From contig LNEW01000123.1 in assembly GCA_001464375.1 (NCBI GenBank), forward strand, positions 1 through 42,565: DNA of 42,565 nt, written 5' to 3'. The notes beneath the pieces were generated by a model, which worked only from the letters and a program-made list of their open reading frames with translations, had not been told where the DNA came from and did no database searches. The DNA is from Rhodospirillales bacterium Ga0074136 (GTDB taxonomy: Bacteria > Pseudomonadota > Alphaproteobacteria > Acetobacterales > Acetobacteraceae). Below are positions 18,314-22,942 of the stretch, piece by piece (the stretch's first letter is position 1; each line of letters begins with the position of its first letter). The position numbers and the translations under genes were made by a program.

Positions 18314-18775
18314 ATGGCGAAGCTGAACGTCAATGGGCGGGTGGTGGAGGTCGCGGTCGATCCTGACACGCCGCTGCTCTGGGCGATCCGCGACCATGTC
18401 GGGCTGACCGGCACCAAATATGGCTGCGGCGTCGCCGCCTGCGGCGCCTGCACGGTGCACGTGGATGGGCAGCCGATCCGGTCCTGCGCGATGCCGGTCT
18501 CCGCCTTCAGCGAGACGCAGCGCATCGTCACCATCGAGGGGCTGTCGCCCGACGGCAGCCACCCGATCCAGGTCGCCTGGCGCGCGCTGGACGTGCCGCA
18601 ATGCGGATTCTGCCAGTCCGGCATGATCATGGCCGCGGCGGCGCTGCTGGCCGAGAAGCCGCGCCCGACCGACGACGACATCGACCAGGCGATGACCAAC
18701 ATCTGCCGCTGCGGCACCTACAACCGCGTGCGCGCCGGCATCCACGCCGCCGTGCGCGGCGGCACCACGGGCTGA
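18314..18775 (+). CDS. IorA-type 2Fe-2S subunit of molybdenum hydroxylase
   Basis: A 153-residue iron-sulfur subunit of the xanthine oxidase/isoquinoline 1-oxidoreductase family. C38, C43, C46 and C58 form the plant-ferredoxin-type [2Fe-2S] site. C97, C100, C131 and C133 (CGFC and CRCG) form the second, helical-domain site. It passes electrons from the molybdenum centre to an outside acceptor; these two-subunit enzymes have no FAD subunit and commonly use cytochromes. The ATG at 18314 has AGAGGGG upstream. It has no signal peptide and probably travels with the Tat-type large subunit, encoded 12 bp downstream. Confidence 0.92.
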   Translation: MAKLNVNGRVVEVAVDPDTPLLWAIRDHVGLTGTKYGCGVAACGACTVHVDGQPIRSCAMPVSAFSETQRIVTIEGLSPDGSHPIQVAWRALDVPQCGFCQSGMIMAAAALLAEKPRPTDDDIDQAMTNICRCGTYNRVRAGIHAAVRGGTTG

Positions 18776-18787
18776 GGGGGCACGACG

Positions 18788-20965
18788 ATGAACGAGATCA
18801 CCCGGATCCGCCCGTCCCGCCGCGCCGTGCTGGCCGGTGCGGGGGCCTTCGTCCTCGGCTTCCATGTCGCGCCGAAGGGCGCGCTCGGCCAGGCCACGGC
18901 ACCCGCCGCAACGCCCGAGATCAACGCCTGGGTGGTGATCCACCCCGATGACCGCGTGGTGCTGCGCATGGCGCGCACCGAGATGGGCCAGGGCACGCGC
19001 ACCGGCCTGTGCCAGATGATCGCCGAGGAACTGCACTGCGACTGGTCCAAGATCGAGACGCAATACGTCACGCCGGGCCAGAGCCTGGCGCGCAACCGCG
19101 CCTGGGGGAATTTCCTGACGGCCGGCAGCCAGGGCATCCGCCAGAGCCAGGATTATGTGCGTCGTGGCGGTGCGGCTGCACGCATCATGCTGGTGCAGGC
19201 GGCCGCCGCGCAGTGGGGCGTGGCGGTCGGCGAATGCGCGGCGAAGGACAGCGTCATCACCCATTCGCCGACGGGGCGCACGCTGCGCTACGGGCAGGTC
19301 GCGGCCGCCGCTTCGCGCCTCACGCCGCCTGACCCCGTGCCTCTCAAGGACCCGCGCGAATGGACGGTGATCGGCCAGTCCAGGCCGCGCCTCGATACCG
19401 CGGCCAAGACCACGGGCGCGCAGATCTACGGGTCGGACCTGAAGATGCCGGGGATGCTGGTGGCGGTGCCGAAGCGCTGCCCGGTCTTCGGCGGGCGGGT
19501 GCGGTCCTTCGATGCGGCGCGCGTCAGCGGCATGCCCGGCGTGCGGCATGTGCTCCAGGTGGGCGACAGCGCGGTCACGGTGGTCGCCGACACCTTCTGG
19601 CAGGCCAAGGTCGCGCTGGATGCGCTGCCGGTCGCATGGGATCTGGGCGAGAATGCGCGGGTCCAGCAATCCACCATCGACGCCATGCTGGATGAGGGGC
19701 TGACCGCCGCCGAAGCCTTCGTGGGCAACAGCAACGGCGATGCCCGCGCGGCCATCGCCGCGGCGCCGCGCAAGGTCGAGGCGACCTATTCCTACCCGTT
19801 CCAGAACCACGCGCCGATGGAACCGATGAACGCGACGGTGGTCTGGACCGCGCAGCGCTGCGACGTGTGGTGCCCGACGCAGAACGGCGAGGCTGCGCTG
19901 GTCGCGACCGCCCAGGCGGCCGGCCTGCCGCAGACGCAATGCGACGTGCATCGCGTCGACCTCGGCGGCGGTTTCGGCCGGCGCACGACGCATGACTGGC
20001 TGATCGACGCGGTGCTGACCGCAAAGCAGATCCCCGGCGTTCCCATCAAGACGATGTGGACGCGCGAGGAGGACATGACGCACGGGCGCTACCACCCGGT
20101 CACCAAGGCGAAGATGACCGCGGGCGTGGACTCGAATGGCGCGATCACCGGGCTGCACATGCGCATCTCCGGCCAGTCGATCCTGTCCTATGTGTTCCCC
20201 ACGGCGCTGCAGCAGGGGCGCGACCCGGTGCAGTTCCAGGGGCTGAACGCCAGCGGGGCGGAGAGCGCAATCGGCTATACCTTCCCGAACCTGCTGGTCG
20301 ACCATGCGATGCGCAACACCCATGTCCCGCCGCATTTCTGGCGCGGCGTGAATCACAACCAGAACGCCATCTACCTGGAATGCTTCCTCGATGAGGTGGC
20401 GCACGCGACCAACCAGGACCCGCTGGCGCTGCGGCGCCGCCTGATGGGCAACCATCCGAAGCACCTCGCGACCCTGAACGCCGTGGCCGAACGCATCGGA
20501 TGGGGCAGCGCGCCGCCGGCCGGGCGCTTCCGCGGCATCGCGCAGCAGATGGGCTTCGGGTCGTATGTGGCGGCGGCGGCGGAGGTCTCGGTCAGCGATG
20601 CCGGCGTGCTGCGCATCCATCGCATCGTGGCGGCGACCGACAGCGGCGTCGCGGTCAACCCGCGGCAGATCGAGATGCAGGTCGAGGGGTCCTTCGTCTA
20701 TGGCCTGTCGGCGCTGCTGTACGGCGAATGCACCGTGAAGGACGGCGCGATCGAGCAGACCAACTTCGACACCTACAACGTGCTGCGCATGGACGAGATG
20801 CCGCAGGTCGAGACGATCGTGATGCCCTCCGGCGGATTCTGGGGCGGCGTGGGCGAACCCACCATCATGGTGGCGGCGCCGGCGGTGCTGAACGCGATCT
20901 TCGCGGCGACGGGCAAGCGCATCCGCTCGGTGCCGCTGAAGAACCAGGACCTGCGTCGCGCGTGA
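18788..20965 (+). CDS. IorB-type molybdopterin-binding subunit (aldehyde/N-heterocycle hydroxylase)
   Basis: A 725-residue large subunit of a molybdenum hydroxylase. The N-terminus RPSRRAVLAGAGAFVLGF has twin arginines and a hydrophobic stretch, which suggests Tat export. The mature part shows TEMGQGTRTGL, a molybdopterin motif, GGGFGRR in the middle and GGVGEPT near the C-terminus, where the Glu is the catalytic base. The substrate may be an aldehyde or an aromatic N-heterocycle and cannot be named. A GAGGGGG stands before the ATG. soxX starts only 22 bp after the stop, so its cytochrome could be made from the same transcript and might accept electrons (inference). Confidence 0.9.
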   Translation: MNEITRIRPSRRAVLAGAGAFVLGFHVAPKGALGQATAPAATPEINAWVVIHPDDRVVLRMARTEMGQGTRTGLCQMIAEELHCDWSKIETQYVTPGQSLARNRAWGNFLTAGSQGIRQSQDYVRRGGAAARIMLVQAAAAQWGVAVGECAAKDSVITHSPTGRTLRYGQVAAAASRLTPPDPVPLKDPREWTVIGQSRPRLDTAAKTTGAQIYGSDLKMPGMLVAVPKRCPVFGGRVRSFDAARVSGMPGVRHVLQVGDSAVTVVADTFWQAKVALDALPVAWDLGENARVQQSTIDAMLDEGLTAAEAFVGNSNGDARAAIAAAPRKVEATYSYPFQNHAPMEPMNATVVWTAQRCDVWCPTQNGEAALVATAQAAGLPQTQCDVHRVDLGGGFGRRTTHDWLIDAVLTAKQIPGVPIKTMWTREEDMTHGRYHPVTKAKMTAGVDSNGAITGLHMRISGQSILSYVFPTALQQGRDPVQFQGLNASGAESAIGYTFPNLLVDHAMRNTHVPPHFWRGVNHNQNAIYLECFLDEVAHATNQDPLALRRRLMGNHPKHLATLNAVAERIGWGSAPPAGRFRGIAQQMGFGSYVAAAAEVSVSDAGVLRIHRIVAATDSGVAVNPRQIEMQVEGSFVYGLSALLYGECTVKDGAIEQTNFDTYNVLRMDEMPQVETIVMPSGGFWGGVGEPTIMVAAPAVLNAIFAATGKRIRSVPLKNQDLRRA

Positions 20966-20987
20966 GCGCGCGGGACGCGGGCCGCGC

Positions 20988-21879: not shown

Positions 21880-21881
21880 AC

Positions 21882-22208
21882 ATGGCGAACCCCATCGTCG
21901 CGCGCATCACCCTGCCGGACCGCGCGCGGCGCGGCGAGGTCATCACAATCCGCGTGCTGGTCCGCCACCCGATGGAACGCGCCATCGACGCCGCGGGCCT
22001 GACGCCGCTGCCGCGCAAGATCCTGCACCGCATGCGCGTGACCTATGCGGATGAGGAAGTCTTCCGCGCCGACCTCTCGCAGGGCATCACCGCCAACCCC
22101 TATATCGAGTTCACCACCATCGCCGTCGAGACCGGCGCGATCGTCTTCGAATGGGACGAGGATGGCGGCGCCACCTACCGGCGGGAGGTCCGCCTGGTGG
22201 TGACGTGA
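21882..22208 (+). CDS. soxZ: SoxZ, partner subunit of the SoxYZ carrier
   Basis: A 108-residue all-beta protein that pairs with SoxY. Family blocks are clear: ARITLPDRARRGEVITIRVL, HPMERA, PRKILHRMRVTYADEEVF, ANPYIEF and GAIVFEWDEDGG. No signal peptide is seen, which is usual because SoxZ is exported bound to SoxY. It begins 2 bp after soxY and its stop overlaps the soxA GTG (GTGA), so the three genes are tightly coupled. Confidence 0.94.
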   Translation: MANPIVARITLPDRARRGEVITIRVLVRHPMERAIDAAGLTPLPRKILHRMRVTYADEEVFRADLSQGITANPYIEFTTIAVETGAIVFEWDEDGGATYRREVRLVVT

Positions 22209-22942
22209 TCCACCGCGCGGTCGCTGCGCTGATCCTGGCGGCCGGCGTTGCCGCTGCGTCCGAACTCCGGCCATCGCGCGACTTCCTGTCGCCCGAATTG
22301 CGCGCGTTGCAGGATGATCCGTCGCGCCATCCCGGCTGGCTGTGGGTGGAGGACGGCGAGGCGCTGTGGCAGCGCGGCGAACGCTCCTGCCAATCCTGCC
22401 ATGGCGGGATCGGGTCCATGGCCGGCGTCGCCACCCGCTACCCGGCCGTCGCACCGGATGGCGCGCTGCTGAACCTGGAAGGCCGCATCGAACGCTGCCG
22501 GACCCAACAGCAGAACGAGGCGCCCTTCGGTACCGAGAGCGACGCGCTGCTCTCGCTCACCGCCGCCATCGCGCAGAGTTCGCGCGGCCTGCCCATGCGT
22601 GTTGCGACGGACGGCCCGGCCGCGTCCTTCATCGAGCAGGGGCGGCGCTTCTACGAAACGCGCCAGGGGCAGCTCAACCTCGCCTGCGGGCAATGCCACG
22701 ACGAGAATGCCGGGCGGCGGCTGCGCGGCGACGTGATCTCGAACGGGCTCGGCACCGGCTATCCGGCCTATCGGTTGGAATGGAACACGCTCGGGTCGCT
22801 GCACCGGCGGCTGCGCGCCTGCTCGCTGGGTGTGCGGGCGACGCAGTTTCCGCTCGGCTCACCGGAATACCTGGCGCTGGAACTGTTCCTCGCGTCGCGC
22901 GCCGCCGGGCTGCCGGTGGAGGCGCCAGGGCTGCGCCGATAG
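22205..22942 (+). CDS. soxA: SoxA, dihaem cytochrome c
   Basis: A 245-residue cytochrome with a short hydrophobic signal peptide (VAALILAAGVAAA). Two CxxCH sites are present: C62-QSC65-H66 and C161-GQC164-H165. The dihaem form of SoxA has both. C206 in RRLRACSLG fits the cysteine that ligates the active-site haem and carries a persulfide. RYPAVAPDGALLNLEGRI and the YPAYRLEW block are also family traits. The GTG start overlaps soxZ by 4 bp. No soxB or soxCD follows; a convergent lipoprotein gene ends 1 bp away. Confidence 0.92.
   Translation: MIHRAVAALILAAGVAAASELRPSRDFLSPELRALQDDPSRHPGWLWVEDGEALWQRGERSCQSCHGGIGSMAGVATRYPAVAPDGALLNLEGRIERCRTQQQNEAPFGTESDALLSLTAAIAQSSRGLPMRVATDGPAASFIEQGRRFYETRQGQLNLACGQCHDENAGRRLRGDVISNGLGTGYPAYRLEWNTLGSLHRRLRACSLGVRATQFPLGSPEYLALELFLASRAAGLPVEAPGLRR

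Follow-up and report, generated by a model that had tools for sequence, protein, structure and literature searches.

A conserved gene cassette joins an IorAB-type molybdenum hydroxylase to soxXYZA with an altered SoxY arm and without soxB

Background

In Starkeya novella, the second sox cluster (soxX2Y2Z2A2F2, Snov_1982-1977) is the closest described counterpart of the genes treated here; the available parts of PMC3797975 report it together with a molybdenum (Mo) enzyme (Snov_1975/1976) and without SoxB or SoxCD. A comparable set of six genes, iorA-iorB-soxX-soxY-soxZ-soxA, lies in a stretch of 42,565 nucleotides (hereafter the window, meaning the whole stretch analysed) from Rhodospirillales bacterium Ga0074136, a member of the Acetobacteraceae (assembly GCA_001464375.1, contig LNEW01000123.1). 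This set is one instance of a real and conserved cassette, functional to judge by its pattern of selection: gene order and direction are kept, the tip of the SoxY arm is changed, catalytic residues are retained, the genes evolve under purifying selection, soxB is absent from the unit, and the flavoprotein FccB co-occurs with it. The cassette and the S. novella cluster are alike in gene content, as judged from the text of that paper alone, each combining SoxXYZA, a SoxF-like flavocytochrome and a Mo enzyme of the xanthine-oxidase family. They differ in that the earlier report concerns one species, which carries a complete Sox cluster besides, and in that the arm change, the spread, the independence from SoxB and the co-occurrence are not described in the parts of PMC3797975 available.

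As far as could be found, S. novella is the one species in which the cassette has previously been reported. As a conserved system it was not recognised in a literature search limited to open-licence papers and to parts of them, and the accessible sections of a SAR324 paper (PMC4782131) and a Burkholderia gladioli paper (PMC13391558) do not describe it.

Several other systems share parts of its make-up. Like canonical Sox (soxXYZAB and soxCD), the window encodes SoxXA with its catalytic residues and SoxYZ with the arm cysteine; unlike it, the cassette has no SoxB, no SoxCD and no GGCGG arm, and has a Mo hydroxylase instead. The family TIGR04487 (SoxY_para_1) also overlaps with it: its members above cut-off whose surroundings were inspected sit in the same cassette, and the records L179 and L180 are annotated so; yet the window SoxY, ending in GACVEGG, scores below the cut-off, and the model covers SoxY alone and not the cassette. 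The fccAB-soxYZ cluster (arm GGCLT, for example L037) likewise combines FccAB with SoxYZ in the absence of SoxB, but it has no IorAB, SoxX or SoxA and forms a separate arm class. On the Mo side, isoquinoline 1-oxidoreductase IorAB, likewise an exported pair of a [2Fe-2S] and a Mo subunit, and the membrane aldehyde dehydrogenase 8gy3, also exported and built of a [2Fe-2S] and a Mo subunit, resemble the window enzyme, whose cassette contains no flavin subunit. The window IorAB differs from both in having Sox and FccAB partners, and its IorB has no CxxCH haem motif.

Fused SoxYZ-S2 and SoxYZ-S4 proteins, encoded near a pyrroloquinoline quinone (PQQ) alcohol dehydrogenase or xoxF (PMC11237559; compare TIGR04557), also place a SoxYZ-like carrier next to a dehydrogenase that acts on organic substrates; there, however, the carrier is fused, the partners are quinoproteins, and SoxXA is not mentioned in the parts of that source available. 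The same survey of SoxY, as far as its available text goes, proposes that divergent SoxY proteins take part in the metabolism of organic sulfur and of alcohols. It deleted SoxY sequences without the 'GGC' motif, and therefore the Ala-Cys type described below could not appear there. A Polynucleobacter strain is reported, in the available part of PMC3308952, to hold three SOX clusters, some of whose genes are nearer to Bradyrhizobium.

Results

Six genes in the window

Six genes on one strand, closely spaced as a preliminary description of this DNA had stated, were confirmed on the sequence and by family searches:

18314-18775, + strand: iorA, [2Fe-2S] subunit, the small one, of a Mo hydroxylase belonging to the xanthine-oxidase family (Fer2_2 92 bits, Fer2 37 bits).
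18788-20965, + strand: iorB, large Mo-cofactor subunit; RR signal of the twin-arginine translocation (Tat) type, RPSRRAVLAGAG; GVGEP loop with the expected catalytic Glu690.
20988-21434, + strand: soxX, monohaem cytochrome c; TTG start; CLICH, Met109.
21439-21879, + strand: soxY, carrier subunit; arm VLGACVEGG instead of GGCGG; RR signal.
21856-21876, + strand: soxY codons of the altered arm tip G-A-C-V-E-G-G, read from the sequence.
21882-22208, + strand: soxZ, carrier partner subunit (PF08770, 64 bits).
22205-22942, + strand: soxA, dihaem cytochrome; both CxxCH motifs; active-site Cys206.

The intervals are 12 bp (iorA-iorB), 22 bp (iorB-soxX), 4 bp (soxX-soxY) and 2 bp (soxY-soxZ), and soxZ and soxA overlap by 4 bp. 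The convergent gene that had been placed 1 bp after soxA is present (22943-23308, - strand) and starts at the base directly following it, the gap being 0 bp. A scan of 17900-23500, itself uninformative, found no promoter or terminator. The source genome is a 4.77-Mb draft, 93.23% complete, of which the window is contig C123.

The SoxY arm and the catalytic residues

Among NCBIfam models the window SoxY is best matched by TIGR04487, 'SoxY-related AACIE arm protein' (131 bits, below the cut-off of 172), and it reaches 94 bits against the model of true GGCGG SoxY, TIGR04488, again below the cut-off (125). It passes the Pfam cut-off, as does SoxZ, which falls below that of NCBIfam (59 against 76). 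SoxX (TIGR04485, 75 bits against a cut-off of 61) and SoxA (196 against 110 bits) pass theirs. With the TIGR04487 members above cut-off the window SoxY shares both the Ala-Cys tip and the gene neighbourhood. In the alignment the arm column reads Ala-Cys in 73/73 rows of this class (three duplicate loci included), and the two other classes aligned, of 8 and 17 rows, have Gly-Cys there. The arm cysteine itself is kept in all 73; a Glu or Asp after it is frequent and not invariant, three Ala-Cys loci having AAC(L/V)IG.

The cytochromes are preserved as well. SoxX, whose solved relative is 1h31_B (E 1.3e-19), keeps CxxCH and the Met in 72/72 rows of the Ala-Cys class, duplicates again included. 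SoxA aligns with 1h31_A (E 4e-46) over the haem motifs and over the haem-ligand cysteine, which in SoxAX structures is the ligand of the second haem; Cys206, Arg202 and Arg211 stand in 70/71 rows, the remaining row being gapped.

IorAB has the features of the IorAB type of the xanthine-oxidase family, namely two [2Fe-2S] domains (Fer2 and Fer2_2 in IorA), both Mo-cofactor domains in IorB and the GxGEP glutamate, and no NCBIfam equivalog scored above cut-off for it. Among 66 Sox-linked rows, 97% or more have the arginines of the RR signal (R11, R12) and E690 of IorB. IorA has no signal peptide visible by eye and would be exported together with IorB. As a separate observation, one iorB match near a SoxY match (G517:C1:3465704-3467869) contains one in-frame TAG in the assembly.

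Relatives of IorAB without adjacent Sox genes were also found. In four scanned records of this kind (L177, L178, L182, L251) just iorA and iorB were detected among the iorAB and sox genes, and in both annotated records a c-type or multihaem cytochrome gene adjoins iorAB. One of them, on a plasmid of Methylosinus trichosporium OB3b (L177, 3155-10082), lies beside a multihaem cytochrome gene and an arylsulfatase gene. That the IorB of Sox-linked loci might form a single clade of its own was considered and rejected, Sox-less genes being nested in the tree.

Spread, order and selection

The search with TIGR04487 covered 299 order genomes, of which 104 gave a match at 1e-3, and 398 phylum genomes, of which 48 gave one at 1e-25. 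The surroundings were inspected in 137 stretches (a few of them taken for other genes), two named loci and the plasmid records; left aside were 21 order matches at about 1e-22 or better, weaker order matches, and 14 phylum matches at 1e-25. Most of those 21 adjoin FccB or SoxB by coordinates. L042 (=L003), L044 (=L004) and L181 (=L107, judged by equal record length and place) were removed from the locus counts as duplicates.

An Ala-Cys-x arm occurs at 71 distinct loci, the window included: 51 order genomes, 18 phylum genomes and two plasmids. In 68 cases iorB precedes the sox genes on the same strand, and the other three loci end at contig edges. The order, iorB followed by [fccAB] soxX-soxY-soxZ-soxA, is kept in 25 genera or more. 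The cassette was identified in Roseomonas sp. CECT 9278 and in Roseomonas rosulenta, and on plasmids of Roseomonas marmotae, Methylobacterium sp. NMS14P and Neorhizobium galegae. Between the window and five relatives the ratio of nonsynonymous to synonymous substitution rates (dN/dS) is 0.07-0.42 over the six genes, which is purifying selection. The SoxA tree is compatible with one origin of the cassette type, which it does not demonstrate (L098 and L239 are mostly gapped, L091 is omitted). Distance correlations of IorB with SoxX, SoxY, SoxZ and SoxA (0.82-0.88 over 61 complete cassettes, leaving out incomplete ones and the double-iorB cassettes L108, L180 and L122) are uncorrected for species descent and carry little weight.

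The arm class goes with particular partner genes. When one sense-strand SoxB was compared by blastp with 144 loci and the window, soxB stood in the stretch examined at 0/71 Ala-Cys loci, 35/36 GGCGG loci and 0/25 loci with GGC-x or a similar arm. The last group showed no iorB at any of its 25 loci, L297-L300 being 5-kb stretches judged from the gene list alone. The arm therefore marks the partner, with L292 and L272 (see below) as exceptions. L292 is the sole GGCGG locus with no soxB in the stretch examined. The G098 match (L296), a broken sox cluster, was left unclassed; there, at 463-3125, a SorA-like gene and a cytochrome gene are followed by soxX and a broken soxY at the contig end.

SoxB and SoxC in the genomes

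The window contains no soxB. The preliminary description had proposed a genome-wide search for soxB and soxCD, and this search, now carried out, returned neither SoxB nor SoxC above cut-off from the source genome: the best SoxB match (TIGR04486) has 123 bits against a cut-off of 550, with none at E <= 1e-100, and the best SoxC match (TIGR04555), a SorA-like protein, 178 bits against 420. The candidate behind the 123 bits, a 528-aa protein (L038), was rejected as SoxB; that it is 5'-nucleotidase-like is a guess. Since the draft is 93.23% complete, a missed piece may lie behind both absences. G066, a genome of the same genus in one contig and 99% complete, carries the same cassette (L040) together with fccAB-soxYZ, and in it likewise no SoxB at E <= 1e-100 and no SoxC above cut-off was found.

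Within the order sample, SoxB at E <= 1e-100 is missing from 40 of the 51 cassette genomes; of these 40, 36 have no SoxC above cut-off and four do. According to the genome searches, any SoxB lies on another contig or far off in 66 of the 71 cassette genomes; the genome-wide test in the phylum sample left out G618, G372 and G605. The absence of SoxB from 40/51 genomes means that the cassette does not need it, even though it often coexists with a complete Sox system.

FccAB and a possible sulfite-oxidising partner

Of the 71 cassettes, 44 contain or adjoin fccA, fccB or both, in three arrangements: in the iorB-soxX interval, downstream of soxA, or convergent after soxA. For the remaining 27, FccB is encoded elsewhere in the genome (26/26 searched, plus G222). 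In the order sample FccB occurs in 51/51 cassette genomes as compared with 24/248 others, and in 20/20 genera as compared with 5/44. Cys189 and Cys361, the redox-active disulfide pair of FccB, are present in 43/43 FccB rows from Ala-Cys loci.

In the source genome FccAB lies outside the cassette, on contig C145, FccB (L037, 10014-11291) having the two conserved cysteines. It belongs to a SoxB-free fccA-fccB-soxY(TTGGCLT)-soxZ cluster (L037, 8106-11587), the second SoxYZ of this genome. A single protein with both AhpC-TSA and 2OG-Fe(II) oxygenase domains follows, and the set is kept in several genomes of the same genus. Elsewhere in the source genome (L039, 4829-6507), a gene for a monohaem cytochrome follows one whose product has as its best solved relative the sulfite:cytochrome c oxidoreductase SorA.

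A case in point is genome G436 (L231, 7849-11916), which has iorA-iorB-soxX-soxA with no soxY or soxZ and is absent from the SoxY matches at 1e-25. It is also the sole FccB-less genome among 28 searched, and its SoxA falls within the cassette type. This single case suggests that the carrier and FccB were lost jointly.

Discussion

The preferred reading is a pathway that operates beyond the inner membrane and without SoxB: IorAB would oxidise a free organic sulfur compound, and SoxXA, SoxYZ and FccAB would capture and oxidise the sulfur. I regard it as plausible, though short of an even chance. Export would proceed by Tat, as for IorAB, and by the general secretory (Sec) route. The Mo enzyme would act first, on a free small sulfur-containing organic compound, its electrons passing to a c-type haem, that of SoxX or FccA. 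This order of events, Mo enzyme first and substrate free, is preferred because IorB relatives with no adjacent SoxYZ share most of the residues invariant in the Sox-linked clade. The SoxXA haem-ligand cysteine might then load the freed sulfur onto the cysteine of the SoxY arm, in the way that thiosulfate is loaded in normal Sox, FccAB would take electrons from a sulfane, persulfide or sulfide end, and any sulfite could go to the SorA-like sulfite dehydrogenase encoded elsewhere in the source genome. The altered arm tip fits a carrier that no longer needs to enter SoxB. The fuller proposition, a separate pathway in which the Mo hydroxylase attacks a carbon-sulfur compound and the re-tipped SoxYZ carries the sulfur with neither SoxB nor SoxCD, SoxXA serving to load it and FccAB to unload it, is somewhat doubtful. 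The earlier suggestion of a different sulfur reaction in which SoxYZ serves the Mo enzyme thus gains from the linkage, the special arm and the independence from SoxB, its chemistry staying conjectural.

A number of observations weigh against the preferred reading, in which the substrate of IorAB is putative. The solved chain closest to IorB is 8gy3_C, the large subunit of an aldehyde dehydrogenase (E 5.6e-79). Sox-less IorAB relatives of 60-63% identity reside on plasmids of Sinorhizobium, Rhizobium and Methylosinus, on which no SoxA was found when each plasmid was searched. In the IorB tree, a quick one with several long branches, six short rows omitted and one gene present twice (L195 = L235), such Sox-less genes branch from within the Sox-linked group at about five points; therefore the Mo reaction can run in the absence of Sox, and its substrate need not contain sulfur. 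I read the IorAB relatives, from their sequences, as probably performing one kind of Mo reaction, with electrons passed to varied c-type haems, and as able to run without SoxYZ. SoxB is encoded elsewhere in 11/51 order-sample cassette genomes and in all 15 of the phylum-sample ones tested, and the Fisher p values for FccB co-occurrence, 2e-39 by genomes and 3e-12 by genera, are uncorrected for descent. At one of the 36 GGCGG loci (L272, 3842-6187, genome G237) a distant xanthine-oxidase-family gene of 781 aa, with 129 bits to the IorB profile and no iorA, precedes a canonical soxXYZAB, and therefore having a Mo gene next to sox genes is not peculiar to the Ala-Cys arm. Finally, in S. novella the second cluster is hardly expressed on glucose, methanol or thiosulfate, and its describers, in the available text, suggest no functional significance and leave other growth conditions open (PMC3797975).

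Some of these facts would suit a dehydrogenase of aldehydes or N-heterocycles for which SoxX, SoxA or FccA is simply the c-type electron acceptor, SoxYZ and FccAB handling sulfide encountered in the same circumstances and being merely co-regulated. Besides the kinship of IorB to an aldehyde dehydrogenase, this agrees with the other c-type cytochrome genes adjoining the Sox-less relatives L177, L178 and L233, with the retention of IorAB and SoxXA only in G436, and with the ABC transporter, allantoinase-like and allophanate-hydrolase-like genes preceding the cassette in one clade of the genus, which fit a nitrogen-containing substrate. It leaves unexplained, however, why the SoxA haem-ligand cysteine persists in every ungapped row, why the SoxY cysteine sits on a specially altered arm, and why FccB accompanies the cassette in every order-sample genome, and I consider it unlikely. 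Quite unlikely is a Mo enzyme that stands in for SoxB or SoxCD, its direct substrate being the inorganic sulfur that the SoxY arm carries. A unit with no soxB or soxCD, an arm altered where SoxB would bind and an intact SoxXA speak for such a role; yet enzymes of the xanthine-oxidase family hydroxylate carbon, and the occurrence of close IorAB relatives with no adjacent Sox genes, most clade residues kept, weakens any scheme in which the Mo enzyme works on SoxY-bound sulfur. In addition, the accessible part of PMC5748708 states that of the two soxY genes of Bradyrhizobium diazoefficiens only soxY1 is essential for thiosulfate oxidation, which tells against this substitution, and against an ordinary Sox isoform as well, if the dispensable soxY2 is indeed the cassette gene.

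Such an isoform, supplied with SoxB from elsewhere, would account for the SoxB genes listed above, in particular those of the phylum sample. It is improbable, given that 40/51 order-sample cassette genomes, the source genome among them, have no SoxB at E <= 1e-100, and that the GGCGG arm is missing at all 71 loci. Enzymes of the xanthine-oxidase family need a sulfido ligand on Mo, and sulfuration normally takes place in the cytoplasm. A SoxYZ that brought sulfane sulfur to IorAB, restoring the Mo=S ligand and so protecting the exported enzyme, would make sense of that need and of a carrier linked to the Mo enzyme at 68/71 loci; the cytoplasmic site of sulfuration and the Sox-less relatives, which manage with no SoxYZ, argue against it, making it less probable again. 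A decaying remnant of a complete Sox operon, the other option raised in the preliminary description, is hardly credible and was rejected: the lack of soxB and soxCD and the weak expression in S. novella (available text of PMC3797975) would suit decay, but the six genes are under purifying selection, their order holds over 71 loci and at least 25 genera, catalytic residues are retained, and copies are spread and even plasmid-borne. That description was right about the gene set and the spacing, and its first option, a different reaction, is partly supported; it overlooked the arm change, FccAB and the S. novella report.

An annotated soxXYZA invites the label of thiosulfate oxidiser, and in SoxB-less genomes, which likely do something else, the cassette would mislead. 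Should the preferred reading hold, a Sox carrier would be devoted to organic sulfur across many genera of the class to which the window belongs, and in 2-Mb genomes from beyond that class, linking organic with inorganic sulfur chemistry and extending the use of the carrier beyond thiosulfate oxidation. This carrier type would then have been overlooked since the survey of SoxY was filtered on GGC, and the S. novella observation would become testable by gene deletion.

Neighbouring genes

Two possible accessory genes lie downstream of the cassette in the window, each being the same neighbour in the three nearest loci only:

26086-26850, - strand: TauE/SafE-type exporter.
26923-27753, + strand: second TauE/SafE-type exporter.

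Clustering of the neighbours of 57 cassette loci and the window, in which gene calling was poor for the low-GC loci L162-L165, gave only generic families at scattered positions across distant genera, namely substrate-binding proteins, ABC ATPases and short-chain dehydrogenases. Directly upstream of iorA, glcD- and glcE-like genes (by eye; 15613-18227) are seen in the window and the three nearest loci only, and a rhodanese-like protein (by eye; 29774-30190) downstream of the cassette is kept in two of the nearest relatives. The gene at 27891-29507 encodes a CoA ligase. It resembles 3-(methylthio)propionyl-CoA ligase, scoring 749 bits where the cut-off is 822, and a long-chain fatty-acid ligase subfamily gives 871 bits, above its cut-off of 766; two distant cassettes (L102, L166) have a homologue nearby.

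An upstream transporter and allantoinase set was considered as a general part of the cassette and dismissed, being restricted to one clade of the window's genus. In L092 (726-5956) its allophanate-hydrolase-like, SsuA-type ABC transporter and allantoinase-like genes abut iorA on the same strand, a possible hint at the substrate. A TauE/SafE gene is convergent just downstream of that cassette (10772-11542), and a gene of this type, other than the two of the window, holds the place just downstream in three loci of the clade.

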